DNA of 53,171 nucleotides from Acidobacteriaceae bacterium (GTDB lineage Bacteria; Acidobacteriota; Terriglobia; Terriglobales; Acidobacteriaceae). The position numbers and the translations under genes were made by a program. The notes beneath the pieces are model-generated. The model had not been told where the DNA came from. It ran no database searches and saw only the letters and a program-made list of their open reading frames with translations. Location: NCBI GenBank assembly GCA_003138955.1, contig PLHP01000319.1, forward strand, positions 1 through 53,171. Direction: 5' to 3'. Positions 14,112 to 35,300 of the stretch are shown here, piece by piece. Position 1 is the stretch's first letter; each line of letters opens with the position of its first letter.

Positions 14112-15539
14112 TCAGCCGATATGTCGGTACAAGAACATTCCCATCATCCGTAGAGCAGAGGTTGGTGTAGCTGGAATTAGTCGTCGTAGCATGTTCTTTT
14201 GCCAAGTGTTTGCAATCCCTACGGTCCGACTCGGATATCTCCAGTAATTCAGTTGCGTTCCGACCGCTCCCCAGTGTTCTTTGAACGATATGAGGCCGGG
14301 GTTGTTACCGTCGGAGCGTCCCATCTCAAATTCATCGAGACCCTTGTCCTTGGCCTCTTGGATGGTGTTCCAAAAGAGAAGTGCCATTCCGCCCAATCTG
14401 TTGAACCGTGCATCACTACAGCCATACTTGTAAACCATTGTCTTCTTGTGTGAAATCGTGAGGATACTCGCCACCGGCAGATCGTCCTTGGACGCAACTC
14501 GGATCCTCAGGTCTTTGCCAAATGAGGCAATCAGTGCCCGAAACCAGTACTGTGGTTGTGGTGGCAAGAACAGTCGCCGGCGGGTGATGACCAGAAGCTT
14601 ATAGAACTGTTGGAGCAGTATTTCCGATGTCCCTTCCTCGTACTTCAACCTTTCCCGCTCAGCTCGTCGAATCTTTCTTTGGACACAACTCTTGTGGAAA
14701 TTGTGGAACAGCTCCTGCGTGCTTCTTCCGCTCAGATTCAGCCGATGAAGATAATACGTGAGACTCTTACCGAAACCGGTCAGACTGGCCGGCTGATAGG
14801 AAGGGGGCCGGATCTCTATGGACTTCCATCTGCCGGTGTCGACATGGTGCCTCATACTAGAGAGCAGGTCATTCAACTCGCCTGAGTTGTTTACCAGTGG
14901 CTCGCAATGATCGGAGAAGGGCAAGGAGACCATTCGCCGCCCCGTCAACCAACTCTTGACACGACAAAAGGCAAGACCATTGGTCAGAGCGGCCTGCCGG
15001 GGACATGTAGTCACAACAGCCGGATCATACCCATACGCAATTTGTAAGGCTCTGAGCCAGTTTGTACTGTGAAAGACTGAAGCTCGAGCATGGTTGCAGA
15101 CGAAAGTCTCCCAGCGCGGATCATACAGCGGGTTGAGTTCGTAAACGGTAGTTGCGGCAGATTTCCCCACACCGAGATGAGGGCCGTCGTCTGCTGGATT
15201 GATCAGCGAAATCCATTCTTGTATTCTGCCGCGAACGCTTTCGGGCGGATCAAGAAACCTTATGCCTGCTTCTCTCCTCGATTCACTCAGCCACGCGATC
15301 TGTCCTATTATTTCCACCCAGTCTTCGGAACCGGGTAAACGGAAAGCCACCGTGGAGATGTGTGCTTCGATCTCAGAGGCAGCTGCGTGTACACCCAACC
15401 CGCCTTCACTGACATCGGACACCACACCGCGACTGGCGCCAATGTTGACGTAAGCGGCCGATTGTACCCGACGCCGGGCGTGGAAGCGGCGCTCGGGAAC
15501 GCCGAGAGCGCAATCGGGTTTTTGCGGGGCACTCGACAT
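14112..15539 (-). CDS. PilZ domain fused to a FemAB-like GNAT acyltransferase
   Basis: A 475-aa cytoplasmic protein. Residues about 14-115 form a PilZ domain that keeps both c-di-GMP motifs: RFHAR (18-22, RxxxR) and DVSEGG (42-47, [D/N]xSxxG). Residues about 130-475 form a FemAB/GNAT-type domain with the blocks GLAFCRVKSWLTGRR, SLPFSDHCEPL, YYLHRLNL, HKSCVQRKIRRAERE, YKYGCSD, GGMALLFW, EFEMGRSD and SFKEHWGA. These match the FemAB-like proteins found in exosortase-associated EPS loci. Such domains transfer aminoacyl or acyl groups to glycan or peptide acceptors. A second paralogue without PilZ lies at 27590-28675. The fusion implies that c-di-GMP controls the transferase directly. Donor and acceptor are unknown. 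Confidence 0.88.
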   Translation of the reverse strand: MSSAPQKPDCALGVPERRFHARRRVQSAAYVNIGASRGVVSDVSEGGLGVHAAASEIEAHISTVAFRLPGSEDWVEIIGQIAWLSESRREAGIRFLDPPESVRGRIQEWISLINPADDGPHLGVGKSAATTVYELNPLYDPRWETFVCNHARASVFHSTNWLRALQIAYGYDPAVVTTCPRQAALTNGLAFCRVKSWLTGRRMVSLPFSDHCEPLVNNSGELNDLLSSMRHHVDTGRWKSIEIRPPSYQPASLTGFGKSLTYYLHRLNLSGRSTQELFHNFHKSCVQRKIRRAERERLKYEEGTSEILLQQFYKLLVITRRRLFLPPQPQYWFRALIASFGKDLRIRVASKDDLPVASILTISHKKTMVYKYGCSDARFNRLGGMALLFWNTIQEAKDKGLDEFEMGRSDGNNPGLISFKEHWGAVGTQLNYWRYPSRTVGIANTWQKNMLRRLIPATPTSALRMMGMFLYRHIG

Positions 15540-16406: not shown

Positions 16407-18305
16407 TTGTCTGAAGTCCCGCATACGTGCTACCTGCCTCGCAGCGGTGGGGCAACCTTGCACCAGTTGTTCGAGGCGCAGGTGGCGTTGCGGCCGAAAG
16501 CAGTGGCGCTCACGTGCGAGGGACAGTCGCTGACGTATGGACAGCTCAACGCGCGGGCCAACAGGCTGGCTTGCCAATTGGTGAAGTTGGACGTCACGGC
16601 CGACAGACTGGTGGGGCTCTACATGGATCGATGCAACGAGTTAGTCGTCGCGATCCTGGCGATCCTCAAAGCGGGCGGGGCATACGTGCCAATCGACCCG
16701 GCGTATCCGGCTGACCGGGTGGCCTTCATGCTGGAAGACTCGCAGGCGCCGGTGCTGCTGACACAAAGTAAGTTGGCGTGCAAGTTGCCCCCGACACAAG
16801 CAAAGGTGCTTTGCATAGATGAGATGTTGGCTCGGCCGGTGCAGGCTGGGGAAGAAACGAACCTGCTGCCCGTGGCCGGCCCGGACCATTTAGCCTACGT
16901 GATTTACACATCGGGCACGACCGGCAAGCCCAAAGGTTCGCTGATCACGCACCGGAACGTGACGCGTTTGTTTGCCGCCACCGAGCATTGGTTCGGGTTC
17001 CGCGAGCACGATGTTTGGACGGTGTTCCACTCCTGTGCATTCGATTTCTCCGTGTGGGAGATTTGGGGCGCGCTGCTCTACGGTGGGCGAGCGGTGATGG
17101 TTCCCTACACGGTGAGCCGAACCCCGGAGGCGTTTTACGAGCTGCTGGCGAACGAGCAGGTGACAGTGCTCAACCAAACGCCCTCCGCCTTCCGGCAACT
17201 CATCCAAGCCGAAGAATCAGCGGGACAAAAGGAACTGGCCCTGCGCTATGCGATTTTCGGGGGTGAGGCGCTGGAAATGGGGAGCCTGCGGCCATGGTTC
17301 GAGCGGCACGGGGATCAACAGCCCCAGCTCGTGAACATGTATGGCATCACCGAGACAACGGTGCATGTGACCTACCGGCCACTGTCGAAGAGCGATTTGG
17401 ACTCCGGTAGCGTCATTGGAGTGCCAATCCCCGATCTGCAGATTCACATCCTGGACCCGCAGCGGCAGCCGGTTGTAATGGGGGTGCCCGGAGAAATGTA
17501 CGTGGGAGGGGCCGGATTGGCCCGCGGCTATCTGCGCCGCCCGGAACTGACGGCCGAGCGATTCATCCCCGACCACTTGACGGGCCGCCCAGGGTCGTGC
17601 CTTTACAGGACCGGAGATCTGGCGCGGTTCCTGTCCAGCCGCGACATTGAGTACTTGGGCCGGATCGACAGCCAAGTCAAGATTCGCGGCTTCCGGGTCG
17701 AACTGGGAGAAATCGAATCCGTGTTCCGCCAGCATCCGGCGGTGCGGGAAGTGGCGGTGATCGCGCGGGAAGACACGCCCGGCGCCAAGCGTTTAGTGGC
17801 CTATCTGGTTGTACCCCCGCCAGCCGCGGGCCAAGCTCCCCGAAGTCAGGAGTTGCACGAGCTCTTGTCCCGCAAACTGCCTGAATACATGATTCCCGCC
17901 GAGTTCGTCCGGATGACGGCTCTGCCTTTGACCGCGAACGGCAAACTCGACCGGGCGGCGTTGCCGATGCCCACGCGGGAGAACGCGCTGGACACGATTC
18001 CTTATTGCGCGCCGGAGTCGGCGATTGAGATTCAAGTGGCCTCGATTATGTCGCAGCTGCTGGCGATCGACCGCGTGGGACGCGAGGATGATTTCTTCCT
18101 CTTGGGCTTGCACTCTATGCTCAGCGCTATGCTGATCGTGCGCTTACGCGAGAAATTCGGAGTGCAGCTCACGCTCCGCGATTTGTTTGAAACGCGAACT
18201 CTGGCGAAGCTATCCGAGAAGGTCGAGCACGAGTTGCTCTCGAATTTGACGCAGATGAGCGAGGAGGAAGTTCACCGCATTCTGTCAACGCTGGAGGGCG
18301 GATGA
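16407..18305 (+). CDS. NRPS A-PCP didomain, predicted threonine-activating
   Basis: A 632-aa free-standing adenylation plus carrier protein with no condensation domain. A domain (about 17-525): YTSGTTGKPKG (A3, 167-177), FDFSVWEIW (A4), NMYGITETT (A5), YRTGDLAR (A7), GRIDSQVKIRGFRVELGE (A8), NGKLD with Lys513 (A10). Residues at the Stachelhaus positions read by eye are D213 F214 W217 N256 I283 G285 M311 V319 H320 K513, i.e. DFWNIGMVHK, the classic Thr code. PCP (about 535-605) carries the phosphopantetheine Ser570 in LGLHSM. TTG start with GAGGAG 7 bases upstream. The stop overlaps the P450 start (ATGA). A lone A-PCP followed by an oxidase usually means that the amino acid is modified while tethered. 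Confidence 0.93.
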   Translation: MSEVPHTCYLPRSGGATLHQLFEAQVALRPKAVALTCEGQSLTYGQLNARANRLACQLVKLDVTADRLVGLYMDRCNELVVAILAILKAGGAYVPIDPAYPADRVAFMLEDSQAPVLLTQSKLACKLPPTQAKVLCIDEMLARPVQAGEETNLLPVAGPDHLAYVIYTSGTTGKPKGSLITHRNVTRLFAATEHWFGFREHDVWTVFHSCAFDFSVWEIWGALLYGGRAVMVPYTVSRTPEAFYELLANEQVTVLNQTPSAFRQLIQAEESAGQKELALRYAIFGGEALEMGSLRPWFERHGDQQPQLVNMYGITETTVHVTYRPLSKSDLDSGSVIGVPIPDLQIHILDPQRQPVVMGVPGEMYVGGAGLARGYLRRPELTAERFIPDHLTGRPGSCLYRTGDLARFLSSRDIEYLGRIDSQVKIRGFRVELGEIESVFRQHPAVREVAVIAREDTPGAKRLVAYLVVPPPAAGQAPRSQELHELLSRKLPEYMIPAEFVRMTALPLTANGKLDRAALPMPTRENALDTIPYCAPESAIEIQVASIMSQLLAIDRVGREDDFFLLGLHSMLSAMLIVRLREKFGVQLTLRDLFETRTLAKLSEKVEHELLSNLTQMSEEEVHRILSTLEGG

Positions 18306-19570
18306 GCAACCCCGGCGCCAACCTAGATGTCGAGCTGAGCCTTTGCCAGCTCTTGAACCCCGCGGTGATGGCGAACCCGTATCCTTTGTACGCCCGGCTC
18401 AGGGAACAGGATCCGGTGCATTGGGATCCCTATCTGCAGTCTTGGGTCGTGACCCGCTATGCCGACGCGATCACAGTGTTGAACCGATTCTCAGCCGACC
18501 GCGCCCCCTCGCCCGAAGTTTTCAAAGCCCTGGGATGCGCTACTTTGAGCCCGATCGCGCAACTGATGACGAAACAGATGATGTTCTTGGACGGCACGGC
18601 GCACACGCGTCTCCGGAGTCTCGCCGCGGCAGCCCTCACTCCACGGCGCGTCCAGACCCTCCACGAAATCATTCAGGCGGTTGCCGACCGGCTGATCGAC
18701 CGTATCGCTGAACAGGGGCACGCGGAATTGCTGGCCGATTTCGCCGAACCGCTGCCATCCATCCTCGCCACCGAGATTCTGGGAACACCCATGGCCGATT
18801 ACAGGCAGATCAAAGCTTGGTCCTCAGACTTCGGAAAGATGCTGGGAAGCATTCAACATGCCGCGGAATTCGCCCCGCAAATCGTCCGGAGCCTGAACGA
18901 GGCGGTGGCCTATTTCCGCGACGCGATTCGCGAGCAGGAGACCAAGCCCAGGGAAGGTCTGGTCCATTCGCTGGTCACAGCGCAGATTGATGGCGCGCGC
19001 CTCAGCGAGGAAGAAGTCATCGCCAACTGCATTCTGTTAACCGCGGGAAGCCAGGAAGACGTTACGAACCTGATCGGAAACGGCATGCTCACGCTGTTGC
19101 GCCATCCGGAGAAAATCGGGCCGCTCGCCAGCGATGCTTCGTTGATCCCACCCGCGGTGGAAGAACTGCTGCGCTATGAGAGCCCCACCCAGCAGACCAT
19201 CCGGGTGGCTCAAGACGACGTAATGCTCGGCGGGAAGCCGGTCCGCAAGGGTCAGCGGGTGGTGGCGCTGCTCGCCGCTGCCAACCGGGATCCAGAAAGG
19301 TTCACCGACCCGGAGCGGCTTGATCTCGCCCGGGAAGACAACCGTCATCTCGCTTTCGGTTGGGGCGCGCACTTTTGCTTCGGGGCGCCCCTCGCACGTC
19401 TGGAAGGGCAGATAGCGTTTAATACCTTGTTGCGGCGTCTCCCCAATCCCGCGCTTGAAAGTGGCCACGCCGATTGGCGCATAAATCTCAGTTTACGGGG
19501 CTTGCAGACGTTGCCGGTCCGTTTCAACGCGCTCGTCCCGGAGAAGGACTCCCAGTTCGTCAGCCAGTAG
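18302..19570 (+). CDS. Cytochrome P450, putative PCP-bound amino acid oxidase
   Basis: A 422-aa soluble bacterial P450. The heme-binding loop is FGWGAHFCFG with Cys359 as iron ligand, and the K-helix ExxR is ELLR (288-291). The I-helix reads TAGSQEDVTNLIGNG (247-261); the usual AGxxTT is replaced by AGSQEDVT, which shifts the acid/alcohol pair used for oxygen activation. No membrane anchor, so it needs a separate ferredoxin, and none is in the window. It overlaps the A-PCP gene by four bases and ends three bases before the next NRPS. From this linkage its likely substrate is the Thr carried on the upstream PCP, or the released peptide. The reaction cannot be read from sequence. Confidence 0.92.
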   Translation: MSNPGANLDVELSLCQLLNPAVMANPYPLYARLREQDPVHWDPYLQSWVVTRYADAITVLNRFSADRAPSPEVFKALGCATLSPIAQLMTKQMMFLDGTAHTRLRSLAAAALTPRRVQTLHEIIQAVADRLIDRIAEQGHAELLADFAEPLPSILATEILGTPMADYRQIKAWSSDFGKMLGSIQHAAEFAPQIVRSLNEAVAYFRDAIREQETKPREGLVHSLVTAQIDGARLSEEEVIANCILLTAGSQEDVTNLIGNGMLTLLRHPEKIGPLASDASLIPPAVEELLRYESPTQQTIRVAQDDVMLGGKPVRKGQRVVALLAAANRDPERFTDPERLDLAREDNRHLAFGWGAHFCFGAPLARLEGQIAFNTLLRRLPNPALESGHADWRINLSLRGLQTLPVRFNALVPEKDSQFVSQ

Positions 19571-19573
19571 ATC

Positions 19574-22500
19574 ATGCCGAACCAAGTTCCGATGTCCGAC
19601 GCAAAATCCCGGCTCCTCGAAAGGATACGCCGCGGAGAAATTGCGCTGCCCACCGGGGAGGAGACGATCGGGCCGCGCGCGGACGGCGCGCTGGTTCCGC
19701 TCACGGCGAGCCAGCGGCAAATTTGGCTACATTCCCAGATGGCACCCCAGGTGCCGATCTACAACGAGCCGATCACCATACGCCGCCGCGGACCACTCGA
19801 CCGCAGCGTGTTGGAGCGAAGCTTTCACGAGATTGTACACCGGCATGCAATCTGGAGAACCACGTTCTCGACGCTCAATGGCCAAGTAGTTCAGACCGTT
19901 CACGATCATTGTACGATTCCGATCCTCTATTCCGATCTCTCTTCACTCCCGGAAACTGAGCGCGAGCCTGCGGCGATCCGCCTGGCGGCAGGCGACGCGC
20001 AACTTCCCTTCGATTTAAACGCGGGGCCATTGCTTCGGCCACGCTTGATAAAACTTGGCGAGGAAGATCACCGCTTTCATCTCACGTCCCATCATTTGAT
20101 TTTTGACGGCATGACGGTGTTCCGCGTCCTGCTTCCGGAACTCGCCGTTATCTACGAAGCGTTCTCCAGGGGCCAGCCTTCCCCGCTTCCCGAGCCCCGC
20201 CTGCAGTATGCCGATTACGCACTATGGGAGCAGCGGCAGTTGGAAAAGGATTTCGTGGCGCGCCAGTTGGAATACTGGCGGCGAACGTTGGCGGAAGGAG
20301 AAGCGGCCAGTTCACTTCTTCCCGCGGATCGTCCGCGTCCGGCCGTCCCCACTTTCCGGGGAGGCACGGAGGTTTTTGCGTTTCCCGTGGGGTTGTTCGA
20401 ATCGGTAAACCGCGCCGCCCGCGACGAAGGCGTCACGATGTACATGGTGCTGCTGGCATGCTTCTACACCCTGCTCTACCGTTATAGCGGCAGCGAGGAC
20501 TTGATGGTGGGCGGCGTCACGGACGGGCGCCAGCGGACGGAATTCGAGAGCCTTATGGGCACCTTCACGAACACCCTGGTGTTGCGCGCCAGTCCTCGGG
20601 GAGAGATGACCTTCCGTGAATTCTTGGGCCACGTGAAGGAAGTGGTGCTGGGTGCAATGGCAAACGGAGATGTGCCGTTCGACTCAGTAGTGCGCGAACT
20701 GCACCCGAAACGCGAGGCTAGCTACAATCCTTTCTACCAGGTCCTGTTCTCCATCGATCCTCCGCCGCAGAGCGATCGACATCCGGGCTGGGAGCTGGAG
20801 CAGCTCGGCATCGATACAGGCGCCACCAAATGCGACCTGTTTGTCGCGCTGGATGAGTGTGAAAACGGCATGACCGGCCGCTTCCATTACAGCTCCGATC
20901 TGTTCGATCAGCGGACCGTCCGTCGCATGATCAGCCACTGGTTGACGCTGCTCGAATCGGTGGTTCGCGAGCCCGGCGCGAGACTCAGCGATTTGACGGT
21001 GACGGCGCCGGCCGAGACGCGCAAGCTCATCCATGATTGGAACGATTCAGCCCGCGAGCTTCCAAACCTGACAATTCACGAATTGATCGAGCGGCAGGTC
21101 AAATTGACGCCGGATGCGGAAGCGGTGGAGGCGGCCGGGGTTCGTCTGACGTATCGCGAAATGAATGAGCGCGCCAACCGTCTGGCGCGGCGGTTGCAGG
21201 GCGCGGGCGTTACGCCAGAAACGCTGGTGGCGGTGTGCGTGGGGCGGACGATGGATTTGGTTATTGCTCCGCTGGCGGTGCTGAAAGCGGGTGGGGCGTA
21301 CCTGCCTCTCGATCCGGGATTCCCGAAGGAACGGTTGGCGTACATGGTCGAGGACGGGCACGCTCCTGTTCTGCTTGCGGCCAGGGAGCTTGAGGATCAG
21401 TTGCCGGAAACCAGCGCGCAACTGTTGTTTTGCGATGACGCCTTGGGCGACGGGTCCGATCTCCCGAACACCGCGACGCCCGAGAACCTCGCCTATTTGC
21501 GCTATACTTCCGGATCCACGGGACGACCGAAGGGTGTCGCGATTCTGCATGGCGCCCTGGTCAATTTGCTGCTTTCCATGCAGCGCGAGCCTGGATTCAC
21601 GAAGGCGGATTCACTGCTTGCCATCACGACGCACTCGTTCGATATCTCCGAGCTGGAACTCAATCTTCCATTGATCTGCGGCGGACGGTTGGTGATCGCC
21701 GCCCGCGACGACGTCCGCGATTCGCGCCGTCTGGTGCAACGTCTGCGTGAATCGAAGTGCACGGTGATGCAAGCCACGCCAGCCGCGTGGCGCGGGATGA
21801 TCGACGCGGGCTGGAGCGGCCAAGGCAATCTGAAGGCATTATGCGGAGGCGAGGCTCTGCCGCGCGATCTAGCCGACTTGCTGTTGGCGCGCTCCGGCGA
21901 GTTATGGAATCTGTACGGTCCCACGGAAACCACGGTCTGGTCGGCCGTTTTTCGGGTGGCCTCCGGGTCCGGTCCGATCCCCATTGGCCGTCCGATTGAC
22001 AACACGCAAATGTACGTGCTCGACGCGCATCAACACCCGGTTCCTACACTAGCGTCCGGTGAACTTTACATCGGAGGCGCGGGTGTGGCACGCGGCTACT
22101 TGCGCCGCGAAGAGCTAATGCACCGTTTTGTCCCGAATCCGTTCCGGTCCGGCGAGCGGTTGTATCGAACCGGCGATCTGGCGCGCTGGCTGCCCGACGG
22201 AACCCTCGAATATCTGGGACGGGCAGACAATCAGGTGAAGGTCCGCGGATTTCGCATCGAGCCCGGCGAGATTGAAGCCGTGCTCGGGCGCCACGCGGCG
22301 GTGGGGCAAAGCGTGGTGGTTGTGCGCGAAGATACGCCCGGCGATAAACGGCTGGTTGCCTACTTCGAGTCGCTGCCGGAATCGGCGCCCAGCTCAGGCG
22401 AGCTGCGCGAGCACCTGAAGGAGTTGCCGGAGTACATGATCCCGACGGCCTTCGTCCGGATGGACAAGTTGCCGCTGACGCCAAACGGAAAGATCGACCG

Positions 22501-23638
22501 CAAGGCGCTGCCCGCCATGGCGGAACTCGCTACTGAAGTCCCCGGCGGCTTCGCTGCGCCGCGCGATTTACTCGAGCAAACGCTGGCGCGGATTTGCGCC
22601 AAAATTCTCAAAGTGAAGCAGGTTGGGCTGCACGACAATTTCTTCGAGCTAGGCGGGCATTCTCTCGCCGCGGTCAGGTTGCTGATTGAAATCCAAGAGT
22701 TAACGGGCAAGACCCTGCCGTTGGCGACTCTCTTCCAGACTTCAACCGTCGAAGGTTTGGCGAACGCGCTCCGCAAGGAGGGCTGGACTCCGTCCTGGTC
22801 ATCCCTTGTGCCGATCCAGCCACTCGGATCGAAAAGTCCCTTATTCCTGGTGCACGGCGCGGAGGGCAATGTGCTGCTATACCGGCAGTTGATCCGACAT
22901 CTGGGGCCGGATCAGCCCGTATACGGTCTGCAATCGCAAGGCCTGAATGGGGATGGGCAGATTTACGCAGGCGTTCATGAAATGGCGGCGCAGTACGTAA
23001 AGGAAATAATCGCGGTGCAGCCGGATGGACCGTACATTCTGGGCGGGTACTGTATGGGCGGAGCGATCGCATTCGAAATGGCCCAGCAACTCAGAGCGTC
23101 AGGCAAGAAAGTGGAACTCGTGATCATGCTCGACACGTACAACAACGGCGTGATTCCCCTCTCCAGGGCCCGCCTGCAAGCACCTTTGCGGCTGTTGCAG
23201 AATGTGTGGTACCACTGTGCCAACGCGTTTTCCTTGAGTGCGAAAGACCGCGGCAAATTTCTGCGTGAAAAACGAGACATCGCGATCGCAAGGACCGGGA
23301 TCAGGTTGCAGGCGGCATATCACGCCCTGGGGCGGCTTAACAAGCAGAACACACAACATCGCTATCCACATTTGATTCTGAAAAAAGCCAATGATCAGGC
23401 GTCGCAGAAGTATGTTCCGGGGCCTTATGAGGGCCGTGTGGCCCTTATTCAGTCTAAAGGATCCATCGCCGGGCTTGGAAGCCCTAGCCCAAATTGGGAA
23501 CCATACGTCGTGGGCGGATTGGAGGTTCATGAACTCCCGGTATATCCGAAGGGGATGCTCATCGAGCCGTTCTGCCGTTCCCTGGCGCAAATCTTGAACC
23601 AGCTTCTTGCTGGTCGAGACGTGGAGGGCGCGAGATGA
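19574..23638 (+). CDS. NRPS module C-A-PCP-TE, predicted glycine-activating, with Cys-type thioesterase
   Basis: A 1354-aa single-module synthetase. C domain (about 41-480) with catalytic HHLIFDG (173-179). A domain (about 500-980) with RYTSGSTGRPKG (A3), YGPTETT (A5), YRTGDLAR (A7) and Lys973; specificity residues D690 I691 L694 Q733 L756 G758 L780 V788 W789 K973 give DILQLGLVWK, essentially the Gly code. PCP (about 995-1065) with Ser1030 in LGGHSL. Thioesterase-like domain (about 1085-1350) whose nucleophile elbow is GGYCMGG: Cys1160 replaces Ser. The C-terminal segment where the catalytic His is expected reads VYPKGMLIEP and has none. The simplest reading is condensation of the upstream Thr unit with Gly and then release. 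The ATG at 19574 follows the P450 stop; the methyltransferase start overlaps the stop. Confidence 0.94.
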   Translation: MPNQVPMSDAKSRLLERIRRGEIALPTGEETIGPRADGALVPLTASQRQIWLHSQMAPQVPIYNEPITIRRRGPLDRSVLERSFHEIVHRHAIWRTTFSTLNGQVVQTVHDHCTIPILYSDLSSLPETEREPAAIRLAAGDAQLPFDLNAGPLLRPRLIKLGEEDHRFHLTSHHLIFDGMTVFRVLLPELAVIYEAFSRGQPSPLPEPRLQYADYALWEQRQLEKDFVARQLEYWRRTLAEGEAASSLLPADRPRPAVPTFRGGTEVFAFPVGLFESVNRAARDEGVTMYMVLLACFYTLLYRYSGSEDLMVGGVTDGRQRTEFESLMGTFTNTLVLRASPRGEMTFREFLGHVKEVVLGAMANGDVPFDSVVRELHPKREASYNPFYQVLFSIDPPPQSDRHPGWELEQLGIDTGATKCDLFVALDECENGMTGRFHYSSDLFDQRTVRRMISHWLTLLESVVREPGARLSDLTVTAPAETRKLIHDWNDSARELPNLTIHELIERQVKLTPDAEAVEAAGVRLTYREMNERANRLARRLQGAGVTPETLVAVCVGRTMDLVIAPLAVLKAGGAYLPLDPGFPKERLAYMVEDGHAPVLLAARELEDQLPETSAQLLFCDDALGDGSDLPNTATPENLAYLRYTSGSTGRPKGVAILHGALVNLLLSMQREPGFTKADSLLAITTHSFDISELELNLPLICGGRLVIAARDDVRDSRRLVQRLRESKCTVMQATPAAWRGMIDAGWSGQGNLKALCGGEALPRDLADLLLARSGELWNLYGPTETTVWSAVFRVASGSGPIPIGRPIDNTQMYVLDAHQHPVPTLASGELYIGGAGVARGYLRREELMHRFVPNPFRSGERLYRTGDLARWLPDGTLEYLGRADNQVKVRGFRIEPGEIEAVLGRHAAVGQSVVVVREDTPGDKRLVAYFESLPESAPSSGELREHLKELPEYMIPTAFVRMDKLPLTPNGKIDRKALPAMAELATEVPGGFAAPRDLLEQTLARICAKILKVKQVGLHDNFFELGGHSLAAVRLLIEIQELTGKTLPLATLFQTSTVEGLANALRKEGWTPSWSSLVPIQPLGSKSPLFLVHGAEGNVLLYRQLIRHLGPDQPVYGLQSQGLNGDGQIYAGVHEMAAQYVKEIIAVQPDGPYILGGYCMGGAIAFEMAQQLRASGKKVELVIMLDTYNNGVIPLSRARLQAPLRLLQNVWYHCANAFSLSAKDRGKFLREKRDIAIARTGIRLQAAYHALGRLNKQNTQHRYPHLILKKANDQASQKYVPGPYEGRVALIQSKGSIAGLGSPSPNWEPYVVGGLEVHELPVYPKGMLIEPFCRSLAQILNQLLAGRDVEGAR

Positions 23639-24318
23639 CACTGAAGGAACGGTTTGGACCGTTTCTCAAAATGTGGTGCGCAAGGAACGGGATGGTGCTG
23701 GCCAACTACTCGAACGGTGACCGGAAAGCACGTTTGCGGGATTACGTCCGGCTTAAGGCCCAGGGCCGTCTCTTGCAAAATCCCGCGGACGGGTGCCAAC
23801 TGATAAATGCGTTACTGGCGACCAAGAACGTCGATGGCGATATCGCTGAAGTCGGAACCGCGGCTGGGGGTTCGGCGCGCCTGATCAGCCAATACTCGAA
23901 CGGAAAAACCATCCATGTATTCGATACCTTCGAAGGCTTGCCCAAGCCGGGCAAAATGGATGCCGGGTTCGTTGAGGGCCAGTATCGGTGTAGCTTGGAA
24001 GACGTCCAGGAATATCTGAAGGGCTTGCCAGTTGAATTTCACAAGGGACGGTTTCCCGAGTCGGCGGGCTCGTTACAGGCTTCCCGCTTCTCGTTCGTTC
24101 ATTTGGACGTCGATCTCTACCAAAGTGTCCTGGATTGCCTGGGATTTTTCTATCCACGGCTGAATCCGGGGGGAATTCTCGTTTGTCACGATTACCTGCA
24201 TGTGGAAGGCGTCACACAGGCCATCGCCAAGTTTTTCGCTGACAAACCAGAAGGGCCAATCGAGCTCATTGGGCACCAAGTTATGGTGGTGAAACTATCG
24301 CCAACGGTCATCTGCTGA
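23635..24318 (+). CDS. TylF/MycF-type class I SAM O-methyltransferase
   Basis: A 227-aa methyltransferase of the TylF (macrocin O-methyltransferase) family. The SAM-binding loop is GDIAEVGTAAGGSARL (73-88), followed by HVFDTFEGLP (acidic residue for the SAM ribose). HLDVDLYQS and CHDY supply the Mg-binding acidic residues. Family members methylate sugar hydroxyls of natural products and also occur in polysaccharide loci. The ATG overlaps the NRPS stop (ATGA), so it is co-translated with the NRPS operon and probably methylates its product, perhaps the Thr-derived or P450-generated hydroxyl. That substrate is inference. Confidence 0.88.
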   Translation: MTLKERFGPFLKMWCARNGMVLANYSNGDRKARLRDYVRLKAQGRLLQNPADGCQLINALLATKNVDGDIAEVGTAAGGSARLISQYSNGKTIHVFDTFEGLPKPGKMDAGFVEGQYRCSLEDVQEYLKGLPVEFHKGRFPESAGSLQASRFSFVHLDVDLYQSVLDCLGFFYPRLNPGGILVCHDYLHVEGVTQAIAKFFADKPEGPIELIGHQVMVVKLSPTVIC

Positions 24319-25449: not shown

Positions 25450-26226
25450 TCAGTTCCAAGAATACGTTTCCAGGCGAGAATGACAGCGATCGAGAGCCAC
25501 CGTCGCGCGAAAGCCGTCGACCACACTGAGGTCTGCCAGAAACCATCGTTTCCCGGCTTCCGTGTTTCCATTGATTTCTTCAAGTTCCGGATCGAGATCG
25601 GGGTGAGTGGTGACGGAAAAATCCGCCAGCGGAAAGGAAAGGCCGTCACCGGTGGCCTTCAGGAAGGCTTCTTTACGCGTCCAGCAGGCAAAGAAGCCCG
25701 GCACGCGAAGACGATCCGACAATGCCTGAAGTCCGGCCCGTTCGCGAAGCGAGAAGAATTGCTCAGCCAGCGCTGTGATGTCGACGTCGCCGCGGATTTT
25801 TTCGATGTCGACGCCTAGCCGGTGCTCAGATCCAACTGCAATCACCGCCATATTTGCCGAGTGGGATACATTGAACTGCAGCACGTGTGGATTCTGCTCC
25901 GCTGCGAGCTGAGGCTTGCCGCTGGTTAGATATTCGAAACGAATCTCGGCCGCGGGAATCGCCAGGTAACCGGCAAGTATGGCTCGAAGTGCAGAACGGC
26001 ATTGAGTGAAGTGAATCTGATCATTCTCGAAGTGGAATCGGCCAGCGCGGGCGATCTCATCGGGAGACAGAGCGCTGGCCTCGACGGCTACGGCCGCCGG
26101 TTCGTCAAGACGCACTCTCCAGACGTCAACGCATCCAGTGGGAAACGCCGGCGTGGAATGGGCTTGCGACCACAAAGTGTCGAGGCGTTGCTTCGTGTTA
26201 CCGGCAGGCGCGCTGACTTCCTTCAT
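25450..26226 (-). CDS. Sfp-type 4'-phosphopantetheinyl transferase
   Basis: A 258-aa cytoplasmic enzyme that moves phosphopantetheine from CoA onto the Ser of carrier proteins. The three family motifs are present: FNVSHSANMAVIAV (118-131), GVDIEKI with Mg-binding Asp and Glu (138-144), and CWTRKEAFLKATGDG (181-195). The length matches Sfp. It is the dedicated activator for the PCP and ACP domains at 16.4-23.6 kb and 29.3-37.1 kb, and its position between the two synthetase units supports that. The start is an ATG. It is co-oriented with the epimerase, with a 124-base gap. Confidence 0.95.
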   Translation of the reverse strand: MKEVSAPAGNTKQRLDTLWSQAHSTPAFPTGCVDVWRVRLDEPAAVAVEASALSPDEIARAGRFHFENDQIHFTQCRSALRAILAGYLAIPAAEIRFEYLTSGKPQLAAEQNPHVLQFNVSHSANMAVIAVGSEHRLGVDIEKIRGDVDITALAEQFFSLRERAGLQALSDRLRVPGFFACWTRKEAFLKATGDGLSFPLADFSVTTHPDLDPELEEINGNTEAGKRWFLADLSVVDGFRATVALDRCHSRLETYSWN

Positions 26227-26350: not shown

Positions 26351-27409
26351 CTAGTCAGCGAGTACGGCGGCGATTCTCTCGCCCGCGTGACCGTCCCAAA
26401 GCGGAGGGATGGTCCCCTTCTTTGCCTGGCCGGCGAGGACTCGGGAGAGTTCGGACCTGAGTTTGTCGGGATCGCGTCCGACAAGAACATTGGTTCCGAA
26501 AGTGACTGTGACTGGACGCTCGGTGTTCTCGCGCAGGGTCAGGCAGGGCACCCCCAGATAAGTAGTCTCTTCCTGAATGCCTCCGGAATCGGTAATCACC
26601 ACGGTGGCACGCGATTGCAGGCCAAGAAAGTCCACATACGACAGCGGATCGAGTATGCGCAATTGCTCGGCATTCAAACCAAAATCAGCAATTCTCTGCC
26701 GTGTTCTGGGGTGAGCAGGAAAGATGACAGCTAGATCACGATTCACTTCGAGGAGCGACTGCAGGAGGCGTTTCAGCGTGGCGCCGTCGTCGACGTTGGC
26801 CGGCCGATGGAGCGTGACCAGCGCATAGCGTTCGGGAAGGCCGTTCTTGCTTTGCCGCTGCGCTACGGGCAGGAGCTTCACCAGAGAATCGATCATCACA
26901 TTGCCGACGCGGAAGATCTTCTCGGCGGGAATTCCCTCTTTCCGAAGATTAACGTCTCCGTCCTCGGAAGGCGTAAACAGCAGATCTGCGAGCTGATCGG
27001 TGACCAGCCGGTTGATTTCCTCCGGCATGGTGCGGTCGAAGGAGCGCAGTCCAGCCTCGACGTGGCCGACGCGCACTCCGAGCTTGGCGCAGACCAGAGC
27101 GGTGGCGACCGTTGAGTTGACGTCGCCATAGACCAGCACAATGTCGGGCTGGCGTTCGAGCAGCACCGGCTCGAAACGAGTCATGATTTCGGCCGTCTGC
27201 CGCGCGTGCGTCCCGGAGCCCACCGCCAGGTTGACATCCGGAGCCGGGATGCCAAGCTGCTCAAAAAACACGTCCGACATATTCGCATCGTAGTGCTGGC
27301 CGGTGTGGACCAGGGTCTGGACCACGTGTTTGCGCGTTTTGAGCGCGTTCATCACGGGCGCCACTTTCATGAAATTCGGGCGGGCACCCACGATGTGAAA
27401 TACGTTCAC
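26351..27409 (-). CDS. wecB: UDP-N-acetylglucosamine 2-epimerase (non-hydrolysing)
   Basis: A 352-aa cytoplasmic enzyme that interconverts UDP-GlcNAc and UDP-ManNAc, supplying ManNAc-type sugar for surface polysaccharide. GT-B fold with HIVGARPNFMK at the N-terminus, HTGQHYD, GHVEAGLRS, MPEEINR, VTLHRPAN and TDSGGIQEE, all characteristic of WecB/MnaA. GTG at 27409 is chosen because it immediately precedes the first beta strand and has GGAG 5 bases upstream; a TTG 15 bases earlier is possible. It lies between the PPTase and the second FemAB gene, all on the minus strand. Confidence 0.95.
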   Translation of the reverse strand: MNVFHIVGARPNFMKVAPVMNALKTRKHVVQTLVHTGQHYDANMSDVFFEQLGIPAPDVNLAVGSGTHARQTAEIMTRFEPVLLERQPDIVLVYGDVNSTVATALVCAKLGVRVGHVEAGLRSFDRTMPEEINRLVTDQLADLLFTPSEDGDVNLRKEGIPAEKIFRVGNVMIDSLVKLLPVAQRQSKNGLPERYALVTLHRPANVDDGATLKRLLQSLLEVNRDLAVIFPAHPRTRQRIADFGLNAEQLRILDPLSYVDFLGLQSRATVVITDSGGIQEETTYLGVPCLTLRENTERPVTVTFGTNVLVGRDPDKLRSELSRVLAGQAKKGTIPPLWDGHAGERIAAVLAD

Positions 27410-27589
27410 GAATTCTCCGACCAACGATCAACGACAACCTGGATTTCAATTATCTGAAACTGAACGATCTGATGATAATAGCAGGAGAGCGGGGGGGTAA
27501 TTCGGGCCAATTCGGCACCTGCGTTCAGCAAGGTGGTGGGAAGAGTTCATGCGGGTCGTGCTCGCCGCCAGTTCTGAACTCGCGGTGCT

Positions 27590-28675
27590 CTATCCGACAT
27601 GTTTGTACAAAAGTTTACCAACCGTTTCCAGAGCTATATCTGGGGAAATTGAGACCACGCGCCTTGCCAACATTTTCTTCCAGACGCCGGGGAGTCCTGC
27701 CCGCACCTTCGGATAACTCCAGTAATGTATTACCGTTGCAGTGGCACCCCAGCGCTCCTTGAAAGCGATCAGCCCCAAATTGTCAATATCTGAGCGGCCC
27801 ATCTCAAGCTCCTCGAAGCCGTGGTCCCTCGCCTCTTGGAGGGTTTTCCAAAACAATAACGCTGTTCCGCCGAGCTTATTAAACGCTGCGTTGCTGCAAC
27901 CATACTTGTAAATCATGGATTTCTTGTGCGAAAGAGTAAGAATGCTGGCAACAGCTGTGCGAGCCTTAAAGGCCACACGAATCTTAATGTCGTTCCCAAA
28001 GGCAGCGATCAAACCGCGAAACCAGTTGATTGGCTGCGGTGGCAGGCCTTTCCGGCGGCGAGTCATGACCAGAAGCCGATAAAACTTCCGCAGCAACTCC
28101 TCCGACGTTCCTTCCTCGTACTGCCGCTTTTCGCGTTCGGCACGACGAATCTTCCTTCTCACGCAATCTTTGTGGAAGTTAAGAAACAATTCCTCCGTGG
28201 CTGGACGCAGATTCAGGCGATGCAGCAAATACGTACCTCCCCTGCTTAATTCGATACGGCCACTCGGCTGGTAAGAGACAGGTCTAATCTCGATGTACTT
28301 GCACTTTTTCTCGGCGACCTCTCGTTTCATGTGCAGAAGCATTTCGTCGAGTTCCTCCGACCGGTGGACCAAGGGGTCGCAATGATCAGAAAAGGGCAGA
28401 GACACCAAGCGTCGACCTGTCAACCAGCTGTTGATCCGACAGAAAACAAGGCCGTTCGACAGGTGGGCATCGGGAGGACAGGTCGTCACAACGACAGGTT
28501 CGTAGCCGTACACAGCGCGCAACACTCGGAGCCAGTTCGGACTATGAAATAGTGACGCCCGTGGGTGTTCTGCAACCAAAGCCGCCCAGCGGGGGTCCGA
28601 AAGCGGATCAACCTTGTAACAACCCGAGGGTGAAACGGGAAACGTTTCGGTTGCACATTGGGTTCCTGAGTCCAT
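27590..28675 (-). CDS. FemAB-like GNAT acyltransferase, paralogue without PilZ
   Basis: A 361-aa protein colinear with residues about 130-475 of the PilZ-FemAB fusion at 14112-15539, sharing SLPFSDHC-PLV, YLLHRLNLR, HKDCVRRKIRRAERE, YKYGCSN, GGTALLFWKTLQEA, ELEMGRSD and AFKERWGA. Similar proteins occur in exosortase-associated EPS loci and are thought to transfer aminoacyl or acyl groups to glycan or peptide. Here the domain stands alone, with only about 20 residues before the conserved region, so it would not respond to c-di-GMP directly. ATG start; a short upstream frame overlaps its beginning. The two paralogues lie on either side of the first NRPS operon. Confidence 0.85.
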   Translation of the reverse strand: MDSGTQCATETFPVSPSGCYKVDPLSDPRWAALVAEHPRASLFHSPNWLRVLRAVYGYEPVVVTTCPPDAHLSNGLVFCRINSWLTGRRLVSLPFSDHCDPLVHRSEELDEMLLHMKREVAEKKCKYIEIRPVSYQPSGRIELSRGGTYLLHRLNLRPATEELFLNFHKDCVRRKIRRAEREKRQYEEGTSEELLRKFYRLLVMTRRRKGLPPQPINWFRGLIAAFGNDIKIRVAFKARTAVASILTLSHKKSMIYKYGCSNAAFNKLGGTALLFWKTLQEARDHGFEELEMGRSDIDNLGLIAFKERWGATATVIHYWSYPKVRAGLPGVWKKMLARRVVSISPDIALETVGKLLYKHVG

Positions 28676-29337: not shown

Positions 29338-32300
29338 CTAATCTGTTGTAACGAGTTCCAAACTAGGTTCGTGCACAGCAATTGTCGATTCTTTTATCGC
29401 CCGGTCAAGGCAACCGCGCAAGAGGCTAGCCAGTTGCCCAACATAGGGCTCTACGAGGCTGCCGCGGGGGCTGATTGGAAGCTTGAAGAGCCGAACGCCA
29501 CCTTGCGCAACCTCTCCCCAGCCACCCAATTGAGTGTGATAACCCGCCAGATGACGCTCCGCCAGGAAGAGAGTCAATTCCCCGGGATAGGGCCTGACGT
29601 CGTATTGAGCAAGGGCTTCTTCGTAGATGTCCGCAAGTTTGGCTTGGGGCGCGGCCGCAGCGGCATTAAGCAGAAGGCGATTCCGAAGACGGGCCCAACC
29701 AAAACGAGCGGATGCTTTTATTCGGGTAATCTCGACGCGAAGTTTTTCCATGAAAAAGGCGACTTTGCCTGCGCCCTCCGCTGCGAAGAGATTGTGGAGG
29801 TGAAAGTAGGGGTTGAGGATAAGACGATTGATAAAGTTCTGGTGCAACGGGAGCGGCCAGCGCAGGGCGCGGATATTGTAAATCTCAATCAGGGCTACGA
29901 GGCCCACGGTCTCGCCCGATTCGATGAGTTGCCGTGCCATTTCTAGGGCCAGCGTGCCACCCAGGCAGTACCCGCCCAGCATGTAGGGACCATGCGGTTG
30001 TACTTGACGGATCTCGTCGATATAACGGCGTGCCACATGTTCGAAACGGCCGTCGACCGGAGAACGTCCGTCGAGACCGGCGGATTGCAAACCGAAGACG
30101 GGCTGATCGGCGCCGAGATGGGCAGCCAGGGAACGATAGAGCAAGACGTTGCCTTCCGCGGCGTGCACGAGAAAAAGCGGCGGCCGATCATTGGATCGGG
30201 ATCGGCGGGGTCGATTGATGGCCACGAGGGATTGCCAGTCTTCTTTCTTGCTGCCCCGGATCAGAACACTCGCCAGCATCCGCGGGGTACAGGCATCGTA
30301 GAGGGTCGCGAGCGGTGCGGTGCACCCCAACTCGCTCTGAATCACGGCAAACAACTGCGCCGCAGCGATGGAGTGGCCGCCCAGGGCAAAGAAATCATCG
30401 TCTGGCCCAATCTTGCGGATGTCCAATACGCGCTGCCAAAGCGGGAGCAGCGCTCGGAGCAATGCGGGCTCCGCCATCGTTGCAAATCTCGTGGAGCTTG
30501 CCGGTGAATCTGAGAATTGCCGTGGCAGCTCTGGGGCCGAAGTCGGAACGGCCGTGAGGGATCTGTCAGCAGCCTCCCGATTTGAGGCATGAGTGTAAAC
30601 AATTTCAGTTGCAGCAGAAGCATCGCCACGCTTGAGCCGGGCAAGATCCAGAACTTCCCGCGAGGGATCTGCCGCAAGGTCCCGCAAGATGGAACCGAAC
30701 GTTGTGAGCCATGCTCGTATGGTGATTTCCTCAAAAAGCTTGATGTCGTAGTGGCAGCGCAGCTCCAGTTTCTCTTCCATCTCGACCGCATTCAAATACA
30801 ACTCGAACGATTCGTAGCCTTTGGGGTTGGCATCGTAGTCGACGGTAAATCCGGATTGCGGCAATTCGTTGGGCTTAAACTTCTTGACGTTGGTGAGGCC
30901 AGTCGAGATCGGGGAAATGCCGAGCGCGGGCACGACTGGACGCAGGTCTTCCAGTAAGCTCACCATCGTGAAGTTGGCATGGTCTAGCGCAGCAAGAAGC
31001 TCGCCTTGTACTCTCTGGAGAAAAGCGCTGACGGCTTCGCCTTCGCGTAATCCCACAACGAAGGGGAGAAGACTTACACAGTGTCCGACGAGACCGGGCT
31101 GGCCGATGACCGGTTGTTCCGCAGTTGGCAGAGCGATAACAAAACGGCGCTGCTGTGAAATGCGGGCCAGAAGGATGGCCAAGGAACTGAGAAGGACAGC
31201 GAAGAAGCTGCAGCCTTCGTTTGCTCCTAGCGCTCTGAGGTTTTCAACCACCGGGGCCGGAATGGAGCGATCGAGACGGCGCGCAGTGAATTCACGCCGC
31301 GCGCTCCGAGGGTGATTGGTCGGAAGCACAAGCACGGGAAAACCATCCTTGAATTTCGAGTGCCAATAGCTGCCCGCTTCCTTGAATTCGTCAGAGCGGT
31401 GGAGCTCGGTTACGCTCTGTACGTAATCGACGTAACTCTTCGCCGGCTCCAGGGCTGCCTGTGCGCCCGAGATTTCTTCGGAATAGAAAGCGCAAAGATC
31501 GTGGATCATGACATCCAACGACCAACCATCGCAGATGATGTGGTGCGCGGTGAAGATAACCGCCGCGCGATCGGGGCCGAGCAAAACCATTTGGCAGCGG
31601 AACAACGGACCCGCAGGCAGGGGGAACGGCAAGGAGGTCTCATCGGCAATCAGTTTGCGGAGACGCTCCTCTTGCCGGGTTGGCTCGTTGATGGAAGAAA
31701 GATCGATGGAAGAAAGATCGGTTACCGGCATCGCGATTTTCTGCGCCGGGTTGATCTTCATCACCAGACCGGTTTCATCGAAGCTGGCGCGAAGAGCATC
31801 ATGCCGCCCAACTAAACGTTCCATGGCGCGCGCCATTTTCTCGATCGAGATGTTGCCGGTAAATCGCAACGTCATGGATTCGTTGTACGAGGCCGACAAA
31901 CGTTCGGAAAGGCGTGAGGAAGCATAGATGCCGCGCTGCGGAACAGTAGATTCAACCTCCAGGAGGCCGGAAGCCGCCGGAGCGGTGGTCGATGCGTTGT
32001 CTTTCGGCAGTGTGGCCACCACGGGTGTACCGGCGTCGGCAGCCGCGGCTGGATGATTCACGCCGGCCTTTTCGAGCAGGGTAACCAAGCGCGCGATGGT
32101 GCGTGCTTGATCGGCAACAACTTCCTCGAGCGCACTGCCGTTCGTGCGCACGTTCAGTCGGACTTCTGCAGCAGCAGGCGCAGCAGGAACATGCAGAGAG
32201 GCCGAGATGGCAGCGGTTTCCGCAAGAATGTCGGCAGGCAGGGTAGCGTCAAGATGCCCCGCAAGCATGTCAACGTTTGGCCACTGATTCATGAGCTGAC

Positions 32301-35300
32301 TGAAGCTGACCTTGGCAGAAAACTCCTTGCGGATGGCAAAAGCGACCTGCGTCAAGGATAAAGAATCGAATCCCTGCTCCATGAACGTAGCAGAGGTGCT
32401 GATCTGTGAGCGTTCGCGTCCGGAGACTGGTAAGAGGAGGTCAACCAGACGCGCAGCGAGGCGGTCTTTGCGTGAAGATGAGGGTGAAGCTAACGAGCTT
32501 CCTGAGGTAACGGTCTCCAGCGGCGCGGAGGAAGCCAATGGCTCAACGAATGGCTCGACTGAGGAACGAGTGGCCGAAGCGGAACTCGCGGCCTGGGGGC
32601 TTGGTGCAGCGGGTGCCACTGGCGCAGGGTCTACCCAGAACCGCTGCCGCTCAAAGGGATAAGTTGGCAAAGGTATGCGCCGACGGTCTTCGTGGGCATA
32701 GAAGGCATCCCAATCAATGGACACGCCGTTCTGCCAGAGAGACCCCAGGGCGAAAAGCAGGGTCGCCCACTCGGTGTTGTTCTCAGGCGTATCGGCAAAC
32801 GTGGGAATGGCTGTGCAGGGATGGTCGGGCGTGAACTGCTGGCGAGCCAACGAACATAGTGTGGAACGCGGTCCACATTCGAGGAAGAGGTCGTATCCCT
32901 CGTCTTTGAGACACTGGATTGCTTTCGAAAACTCCACGGTTGCCCGGGAATGGCGGGCCCAATAAGCGGGATCGGTGGCTTCTGCTGTGGTGATGGGGCG
33001 TCCCGTGACCGTCGAGACAAAGGGCCTCACCGGAGGGCGCAACTGGACTTTGGCGATGGCCTCGCGCAACGGCTCAACCATGGGATCCATCATGGCGGAG
33101 TGAAAGGCGTGCGAGGTATGCAGGCGGCGGCAGACCATCTTTTCCGCTCCGAGGTTTTCCGCTTCGAGTTGCTTCTGGAATTGGGCGACATCCGCTTCCG
33201 GACCCGACACGACACATAAAGCCGGAGCATTATTGGAAGCGATCTGAAGCGTAGCCGGAAGAATTTTCGCGACCGAATCTGCGCTGCCACTCACCGCCAT
33301 CATCGAACCACGCGGGAGGTTCTGCATTAAACGGCCCCGCAGCGCGATGATGCTGAGAGCGTCCTCAAGCTCCCACACGCCGGCGAGCGTGGCGGCGACA
33401 AATTCTCCGATGCTGTGCCCGGCCATCGTGGCAGGCTCGACACCCAGGCTCTGCCAGAAACGCGCCAGCGCGTATTCGATCACGAAAATGGAGGGCTGGG
33501 TGAAAAACGTGTCCTGCAGCGAGATTTGGGCGGTCTTCTCATCTCCACTTTGAGGATAAAGAATGTCACGCAAATCTCTGCCGAGATGGGGCTTGAGGTG
33601 TTCGCAACAATCGTCCACGACGGCGCGGAAGAGAGGCTCGTCCCGATAGAGGTTCAGGCCCATGTTGACGTACTGAGTGCCCTGGCCGCCGAAAAGAAAG
33701 ACGACCGGAGGATCCCGGCGTTCACAGCGTCTAGCGCTGCAGCGCAAAGGATTCGGTTGCGTGAGCAGTCTGGCGGCTTCGCCGGAATCGGCGGCGACCA
33801 CGAAACGCCGGTGGGCCATTTGCTTGCGCCCGGTTTGAAACGTGTAGGCCGCATCCGCAAAAGCTTCCGGCGCGGCACTCGCGAGATGCTCCGCCAATGC
33901 CCGGCTGTAGGCATCCAAGGCTGCCGGACTCTTGGCGGAGAGAGGCAAAAGCTGCAGCGGACGCGAAGCGCGCGCGCCCTTCGGCACGGGTGCTTCTTCG
34001 AGGATGACGTGTACGTTAGTCCCGCCAAAGCCAAACGAGCTGACCGCTGTGCGGCGCACTTCCTCTCCCCGAGGGAACGGGATGAGCTTGTCGGCCATGA
34101 TGAACGGGCTGCTGGCAAAATCGATCTTGGGATTCGGCGTTTTGAAATGGAGGGTCGGAGGAATCTGTTCGTAATGGAGAACGAGGGCCGCTTTGATCAG
34201 GCCCGCAACTCCCGCGGCATTGGTTGGATGCCCGATGTTTCCCTTGATGGAGCCGATATAGCAGAACTGCTTCTTGCCGGTCTTGCTCTCGAAAACTTTC
34301 TGCAGCGCTTCGAATTCAATGGGGTCGCCGACAGGAGTGCCCGTGCCGTGCGCCTCGATGTATCGAATGGTCTCGATAGGAACGTTGGCATTGGACTGGG
34401 CCAGGGCAATGGCATCCGCCTGGCCGTCCACGCTCGGGGCCAGAAAGGAAGCGGGGCGCGCACCGTTGTTGTTTTTACCGGTACCGCGAATAACGGCATA
34501 AATGGTATCGCCATCGGCGAGAGCGTCGGCGAGCCGCTTGAGCATGACCACGCCAGCACCGTCACAAAACATGGTTCCGGTGGCGTCCGCATCAAAAGGA
34601 CGGCAGTGGCCATCCTTGGCAAACGTGCCTCCCTCTTGATAGAGGAACCCGCTTTTTTGCGGAACCGTGATATCAACGCCGCCGGAGAGAGCGATATCGC
34701 ACTCATAGTCGAGCAGCGAGCGATAGGCCTGGTCCACCGTTAAGAGCGTGGTCGAGCAGGCGGTATTGACGCTGATCGCGGGCCCGCGGAGATCCAGGAG
34801 ATAGGCGGTCCGAAGCGCGATGTAATCTTTCTGGTTGCCGTACTCGACGGCGAGCTTGCCGGCCATGGCCATCAGATCGGGGTGGGTCAGGAGGTTGGTG
34901 GTGTAGTAGTGGTTGTCGCCGATGCCCGCAAACACGCCGATGCGCCCTTTGTAGCGCTCCGGGTCGTACCCTGCGTTTTCGAGCGCCTGCTGGGCGAGTT
35001 CGAGAAAGACGCGTTGTTGCGGATCCATGACCCTGGCTTCGAGCGGATTGATGCCAAAGAAGGCTGCATCGAAAAGATCCGCCCCCTCGATCAAACCTCG
35101 AGCGCGGATGTAGTCCGGATCACTGCGAAGATGTTCGTCAATGCCGGGGCCCAACTCTTCGGGTGTAAAAAAAGAAATGGATTCGACGGAATTGCAAAGG
35201 TTGCGCCAGAGCTGATCGAGGTTGGCCGCGCCCGGGAAGCGCCCGGTCATGCCGATCACCGCAACGGCAGCGCGCGCGCCGTCGTTCCCGTCTTGCGAAT

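Follow-up and report, generated by a model that had tools for sequence, protein, structure and literature searches.

Two thioesterases of an Acidobacteriaceae gene cluster are members of a clade of type I domains with a cysteine nucleophile and no catalytic histidine

The two C-terminal thioesterases TE1 and TE2 encoded in the window, i.e., the whole analyzed stretch of 53,171 nucleotides (contig PLHP01000319.1 of assembly GCA_003138955.1), have a cysteine nucleophile, an acid, and a proline at the place of the catalytic histidine, and they fall into a single clade of 60 domains that all lack this histidine. That the trait marks such a clade, goes along with glycine-type modules and is accompanied by a conserved histidine in the lid goes beyond the preliminary description of this DNA. 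We tentatively favor, at slightly less than even chances, the reading that in both domains the chain is bound as a cysteine acyl-enzyme, is shielded from hydrolysis and is then handed to a nitrogen nucleophile, either its own or that of another molecule.

Residues and fold of the two terminal thioesterases

The domains and their key residues are located as follows (basis of the assignment or distribution in brackets).

22799..23635, plus strand: TE1, C-terminal thioesterase of the C-A-PCP-TE synthetase, residues 1076-1354 of 1354 (PF00975, 91.2 bits)
23051..23053, plus strand: Cys1160, nucleophile of TE1 in GGYCMGG (Cys in 59 of 60 clade domains)
23132..23134, plus strand: Asp1187, position-I acid of TE1 (clade column Asp 35, Glu 24, Asn 1)
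23141..23143, plus strand: Asn1190, three residues past the acid, clade signature (57 of 60 clade domains vs 5 of 129 others)
23213..23224, plus strand: lid helix motif H-x-x-N (His1214, Asn1217), candidate relocated base (model helix 128-144)
23546..23548, plus strand: Pro1325, catalytic-His column of TE1 (alignment)
29341..30234, minus strand: TE2, C-terminal thioesterase of the NRPS-PKS, residues 2304-2601 of 2601 (PF00975, 82.4 bits)
29965..29967, minus strand: Cys2393, nucleophile of TE2 (sequence)
29884..29886, minus strand: Glu2420, position-I acid of TE2 (sequence)
29791..29802, minus strand: His2448 and Asn2451 in the lid of TE2 (alignment; model helix 130-151)
29467..29469, minus strand: Pro2559, catalytic-His column of TE2 (alignment)

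Both domains score above the curated PF00975 cut-off (26.4 bits), each lies C-terminal to a PP-binding domain, and both contain the nucleophile motif GxCxG and the position-I acid. They are certainly members of the PF00975 fold family, an assignment that implies no claim to the standard triad. The AF2 models (pLDDT 90 for TE1 and 89 for TE2) have an alpha/beta-hydrolase fold with a lid, and the structural matches obtained with TE1 as query in Foldseek and VIA-align agree with an intact thioesterase fold. VIA-align ranked PDB 4zxh first (Z 28.5, rmsd 3.9 over 235 residues), tied with 6ojd (Z 27.8). The sequence search and Foldseek placed 7crn/7dxo first (7crn with Z 27.1 in VIA-align), which according to their titles represent a bifunctional epimerizing and cyclizing thioesterase; unlike TE1, 7crn has a serine nucleophile in the alignment. 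The 4zxh structure is the uncharacterized AB3403 of Acinetobacter baumannii, which resembles the TE1 protein in its C-A-PCP-TE order, its cysteine and its position-I aspartate, but keeps the catalytic histidine (LPGDHSS).

The preliminary description had read cysteines 1160 and 2393 in the GGYCxGG motifs of both domains, which the sequence confirms, and had found no histidine at the canonical place. This also stands: in the HMMER alignment of TE1 with AB3403, the gap-free stretch LPVYPKGMLIEP over LPGDHSSIMYAE puts Pro1325 on the catalytic-His column, the corresponding residue of TE2 is Pro2559, and neither domain has the catalytic histidine after beta8 when aligned with AB3403 and canonical relatives. 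Eight other histidines are present in TE1 and ten in TE2. His1094 of the FLVHGAEGN motif occurs in all 60 clade domains and is not tied to the loss, since 111 of 129 other domains have it too. Directly after strand beta7, TE2 contains Glu2529 and His2531, the latter (RHLAG) being kept in four close TE2 orthologs; this Glu/Lys-Arg-His stretch is found in TE2 and these orthologs, is absent from TE1, and might provide a second base or acid of the TE2 group. The pair is not conserved across the clade, in which 15% of the domains have an acid at the Glu2529 column, and TE1 has neither histidine nor acid after beta7, residues 1288-1303 being devoid of Asp and Glu.

The trait is not a matter of chance, because the TE2 orthologs in four genomes of the genus (75-89% identity) keep both the cysteine and the proline. 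Sequencing error or a pseudogene is ruled out by these orthologs and by the open reading frames. Within the genome, the loss of histidine is specific to TE1 and TE2, since the third PF00975 match is an ordinary Ser/Glu/His domain.

A clade of thioesterases without the catalytic histidine

Relatives were collected from named genomes by a peptide pattern containing GYC (L036-L115), by which cysteine is over-represented, and by searching genomes of the same genus, family, and phylum with a profile built from Cys/no-His rows. The profile search contributed 30 hits taken as loci and 60 further hits, the weakest being left out; one of its 89 domains is TE2 itself. The domain set excludes hits that scored below 60 bits or whose match began late in the profile, as well as a single partial domain of 126 aa. 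The resulting 189 distinct domains comprise 100 Ser/His, 72 Cys/no-His, 16 Cys/His, a single Arg/no-His (L047) and no Ser/no-His type. Histidine is thus kept in all 100 serine types and missing in 72 of 88 cysteine types, and cysteine is present in 72 of the 73 domains without histidine. The profile-search subset gives the same picture (70 Ser/His, 9 Cys/His, 10 Cys/no-His, no Ser/no-His; Fisher 1.8e-8, a statistic that ignores shared descent), and a paired-rows test of nucleophile against histidine on the tree yielded few supported pairs. In this sample of 189 domains, loss of the histidine is tolerated with cysteine and not with serine. Such a pattern is expected chemically, because thioester exchange onto a thiol requires less base. 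Since 72 of the 73 domains devoid of histidine have kept cysteine and none of the 100 serine types lacks histidine, it is the thiol that is under selection and not the histidine; the pattern also says that the thiol is still in use. A His-less cysteine thioesterase is therefore not peculiar to the pathway of the window.

In a maximum-likelihood tree of the 189 domains, from which the nucleophile, acid, and His columns had been left out, 60 His-less domains including TE1 and TE2 (the latter as L116) form a single clade without exceptions (SH-aLRT 98), which a slower tree of 95 rows recovers (ultrafast bootstrap 99, SH-aLRT 87). The earlier view of TE1 and TE2 as one subfamily is borne out by this common placement as well as by their 39% identity and common motifs. 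Thirteen His-less cysteine domains lie outside the clade, and parsimony requires at least five changes of the histidine state on the full tree and six on the 95-row tree, a count that is blind to direction (gain vs loss). The record titles of the clade name Acidobacteria, Verrucomicrobia, Planctomycetes, Chloroflexi, Ignavibacteria, Nitrospirae, and Calditrichia, besides deltaproteobacterial lines including Geobacter, Fibrobacter, and one cyanobacterium; as most are metagenome bins, individual taxon placements may be wrong.

The clade has a signature of its own. Proline at the position of Pro1325 is found in 56 of 60 clade domains and in none of the 129 others, and the residues at Asn1190 (57 of 60 vs 5 of 129), Cys1160 (59 vs 29), Tyr1159 (59 vs 38), and Lys1233 (57 vs 44) are likewise enriched. 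The position-I acid is retained in 59 domains (Asp in 35, Glu in 24), the remaining one having Asn. In the lid, where the alignment is least certain, His1214 is conserved in 58 of 60 clade domains (43 of 129 others) and Asn1217 in 55 (26 of 129); the two residues lie one turn apart in the helix of the TE1 model, and matching residues are present in the TE2 lid helix. L047 (5560-6828), the sole clade domain without cysteine, has arginine instead and also arginine at His1214, a double loss hinting that the two residues work together. L064 keeps the cysteine and has glutamine in the His1214 column. No published description of the clade was found in the portions of the open-licence literature available to the search, and it appears to be an undescribed variant within the known type I thioesterase family.

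Clade architectures are diverse, some of the thioesterases directly following a PKS module. Free-standing PCP-TE didomains account for 12 of the 57 clade domains with context, and a further 22 run into the end of their contig or locus. In four loci (L036: 5689-8829, L038: 5650-8887, L044: 5728-9927, L047: 5560-10782) a free-standing PCP-TE of the His-less clade is followed by a second PCP-TE of the Ser/His type, the nucleophile of the former being cysteine in L036, L038, and L044 and arginine in L047. All four contain AMP-ligases with codes unlike those of amino-acid A domains; L044 also encodes a homoserine O-succinyltransferase and Cys/Met PLP enzymes, and L036 a TPP enzyme. Further variants were seen among the relatives. 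In a second His-less cysteine lineage (L123, L128, L130, L134, L139) the position-I acid has been lost as well, and L123, L128, L130, and L134 have A codes (DAMHLGGVS-like) in common with their Ser/His relatives L118 and L122, which makes them a natural before/after pair. Full-length relatives of the C-A-PCP-TE of the window (45-46% identity; L018: 2154-6302, L026: 4121-8293) have a thioesterase with cysteine and with glutamine at both the acid and the His column (PGHQET), and L031 (1531-8883) encodes a KS-AT-PCP-TE-TE protein with two tandem Ser/Asp/His thioesterases.

Glycine-type modules and the gene cluster

The cluster around the two thioesterases contains the following genes.

16407..18305, plus strand: stand-alone A-PCP with the threonine-like A code DFWNFGMVH
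18302..19570, plus strand: cytochrome P450 between A-PCP and C-A-PCP-TE
19574..23638, plus strand: C-A-PCP-TE synthetase of 1354 aa with the glycine-like A code DILQCGLVW
23635..24318, plus strand: TylF-type methyltransferase
25450..26226, minus strand: phosphopantetheinyl transferase
26351..27424, minus strand: UDP-GlcNAc 2-epimerase
27590..28675, minus strand: FemAB/GNAT-type acyltransferase, below the TIGR03019 cut-off
29338..37143, minus strand: NRPS-PKS of 2601 aa, A(glycine-like)-PCP-KS-AT-ACP-C-PCP-TE, last module without A domain

At the code positions, which we take to be those of GrsA, alignment gives DILQCGLVW for the C-A-PCP-TE, DILQCGMIW for the NRPS-PKS, and DFWNFGMVH for the free A-PCP. 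The published codes DILQVGLIWK and DILQLGMIWK stand for glycine and DFWNIGMVHK for threonine. From codes and domain order, the TE1 line probably assembles threonine, perhaps oxidized by the P450, followed by glycine, and the TE2 line probably glycine, one AT-loaded PKS unit, and then an amino acid on the PCP that lacks an A domain.

In the clade, the last in-frame A domain before the thioesterase is glycine-type in 20 of 24 cases, compared with 8 of 40 elsewhere (uncorrected for shared descent); restricted to A domains starting less than 620 aa before the thioesterase, the figures are 17 of 20 and 8 of 38. Five of the eight non-clade glycine-type codes precede other cysteine thioesterases and three precede serine ones, and two of the eight are loose assignments (L097, DIMQCGMIY; L081, partial). 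Shared ancestry of entire modules confounds the glycine link, which is not universal either, as four of the 24 clade members differ (L062, L076, L080, L117). An aminotransferase domain upstream of the C-A-PCP-TE was detected in L062, L063, L067, L069, and L073, a KR in L060 and L068, and neither in L115 and L045; since this content differs among relatives, the acyl part varies while glycine recurs. In the five loci with an aminotransferase, which is of class III and lies between the PKS part and the C-A-PCP-TE, the code is glycine-type in four, and they perhaps represent a family of beta-amino acid plus glycine products. Tetramate as one common product class is not general, because seven of nine clade proteins scanned have a KR or aminotransferase. 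For the TE2 line itself, KS-AT-ACP without a KR match before C-PCP-TE would be compatible with a Dieckmann-type tetramate closure.

In other genomes of the genus, relatives of the epimerase and the phosphopantetheinyl transferase lie close to NRPS genes. Further neighbors are of polysaccharide type (three GT4-type glycosyltransferases, an AsnB-like amidotransferase, and a weak Wzy-like match), adjoined by a MFS/spermidine-synthase-like fusion (50172-52388). A PilZ domain fused to a FemAB/GNAT acyltransferase is encoded at 14112-15539, and a gene with a phage terminase RNaseH-like domain (PF17289; 7794-9530) lies to the left of the cluster. In a comparison with plasmid records, the best 15 of 493 matches were all below 35% identity. 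No acceptor gene conserved across the clade was found in the neighborhoods of 57 clade domains. A polysaccharide or amino sugar is a possible acceptor for the released chain, but the association is weak: FemAB genes lie near 8 of 57 clade domains (1 of 42 others), and none was found beside the NRPS-PKS orthologs in the four other genomes examined. This acceptor was set aside. FemAB, AsnB, and glycosyltransferase genes near several free-standing PCP-TEs are a lead towards an acceptor.

Release chemistry

From the residues, their conservation, the clade, and the glycine-type codes we infer the chemical steps and the acceptor as follows. The Ser-His-Asp arrangement would have become Cys-(no His)-Asp/Glu within a clade of type I thioesterases. 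The chain would move from the pantetheine of the last PCP onto Cys1160 or Cys2393 in a thioester exchange that is close to energy-neutral; the helix dipole and the oxyanion environment would activate the thiol, and the lid histidine might or might not assist. With no fixed histidine beside the acyl-thioester, water would not be activated and hydrolysis would be suppressed. The acyl-cysteine would instead react with a nucleophile superior to water, an amine being the likeliest. Such a nucleophile could sit either in the chain itself, giving a lactam such as a tetramate or a diketopiperazine, or on a separate acceptor. Most of the clade members that contain an A domain in line would have a donor ending in glycine, an unhindered thioester prone to hydrolysis, which removal of the base would protect.

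Characterized cysteine thioesterases support this reading. The NRPS release domains of ObiF1 (obafluorin) and SulM (sulfazecin) have a cysteine nucleophile like TE1 and TE2 and favor cyclization over hydrolysis. Transfer to the cysteine of ObiF1 is described as energy-neutral transthioesterification, its Cys-to-Ser variant forms the hydrolyzed acid only, and the corresponding SulM variant rapidly hydrolyzes the product. The conserved thiol, the intact fold, the clade support, and the glycine association also count in favor of the base-free acyl-enzyme. Against it stand the lack of a conserved acceptor gene and a glycine link that is incomplete and confounded by descent, and the diverse architectures make one reaction for all members doubtful. 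Moreover, removal of histidine or aspartate is reported to lower ObiF1 activity strongly, and loss of the catalytic histidine was suggested to block transfer onto the thioesterase; a cysteine thioesterase may thus need a base, which keeps alive the possible, if rather unlikely, alternative of a relocated one. Here, His1214, together with the position-I acid and with Asn1217, Asn1190, or both, would pair with the cysteine on lid closure, yielding a full catalyst that may hydrolyze or cyclize as usual, and in TE2 alone Glu2529/His2531 would be a second candidate. The lid histidine is a serious candidate for this role: it is present in 58 of 60 clade domains and in 8 of the 13 His-less domains outside the clade, compared with 29 of 100 Ser/His domains (Fisher 0.027 for the latter comparison, in which sister rows are not independent), its arrangement with Asn1217 recurs in both models, and L047 has lost it together with the cysteine. 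As to the second candidate, the four close orthologs of TE2 keep His2531. Its occurrence in 29 serine domains with the canonical histidine, however, means that it was there before the loss and may have a different role. Moreover, L064 has cysteine without it, the alignment is least secure in the lid, and TE1 offers no histidine or acid after beta7. A more specific proposal, which we regard as unlikely, is a lid-gated enzyme in which the lid helix, and no longer the beta8 loop, would provide the base (His1214, Asn1217, Asn1190), so that the Cys-His pair would form only when the lid closes over the glycyl-thioester, with water shut out and the enzyme committed to aminolysis.

An inactive holding domain, its fold kept for docking or spacing and release being spontaneous or left to another enzyme, seems improbable. 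The model is the C-terminal TE0 of PacP, which lacks the usual triad and is believed inactive for this reason; one triad residue is lost in TE1 and TE2 too, and one clade member also lacks the cysteine. Yet the PacP-like hallmark, the absence of conserved catalytic residues, does not apply to the clade, with cysteine and acid each kept in 59 of 60 domains, and a new conserved signature is unexpected for decay. Closure of a strained beta-lactone or beta-lactam ring as in ObiF1 and SulM is very improbable. It would fit the cysteine nucleophile common to these enzymes, the glutamate after beta7 in TE2, and a cluster in which the threonine-type A domain and the P450 could supply a beta-hydroxyl. 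ObiF1 and SulM, in contrast, retain their histidines (His1284 and His2956, respectively) and have aspartate after beta7 (position II), whereas the window domains have proline for histidine and a position-I acid, TE1 lacks an acid after beta7, and the A domain fused to it is glycine-like, glycine having no beta-hydroxyl. SulM is further described with a Gln-Cys-Asn motif. Membership among the beta-lactone thioesterases is thus rejected on the missing histidine of both domains and on the acid position of TE1. The preliminary description had proposed ring closure or chain transfer rather than hydrolysis and had pointed to obafluorin; non-hydrolytic release remains the most economical reading, and the link to beta-lactone closure is not supported.

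Other release and transfer enzymes offer partial parallels. The Dieckmann cyclases TrdC and NcmC release by cysteine like TE1 and TE2, but are stand-alone proteins with a Cys-Asp-His triad; the A domain that supplies the chain end in nocamycin has a glycine code of the DILQ type. The shuttles CmaE and SyrC, and LgnA with its Ser77-Asp184-His212 triad, likened here by description, move aminoacyl groups between carrier proteins and are separate proteins.

Type I thioesterases decide whether a nonribosomal product leaves as an acid, a ring, or a conjugate, an outcome that is hard to predict from sequence. A clade recognizable by cysteine, proline for histidine, D/E-x-x-N, H-x-x-N in the lid, and an upstream glycine module would allow many uncharacterized assembly lines from soil and sediment bacteria to be sorted. 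It also offers a natural test of the need of cysteine thioesterases for histidine. If the lid histidine is the base, a catalytic residue would have moved between structural elements within one enzyme family, and the lid-gated enzyme, if true, would represent a catalytic arrangement new to the alpha/beta-hydrolase thioesterase fold, in bacteria of many phyla.
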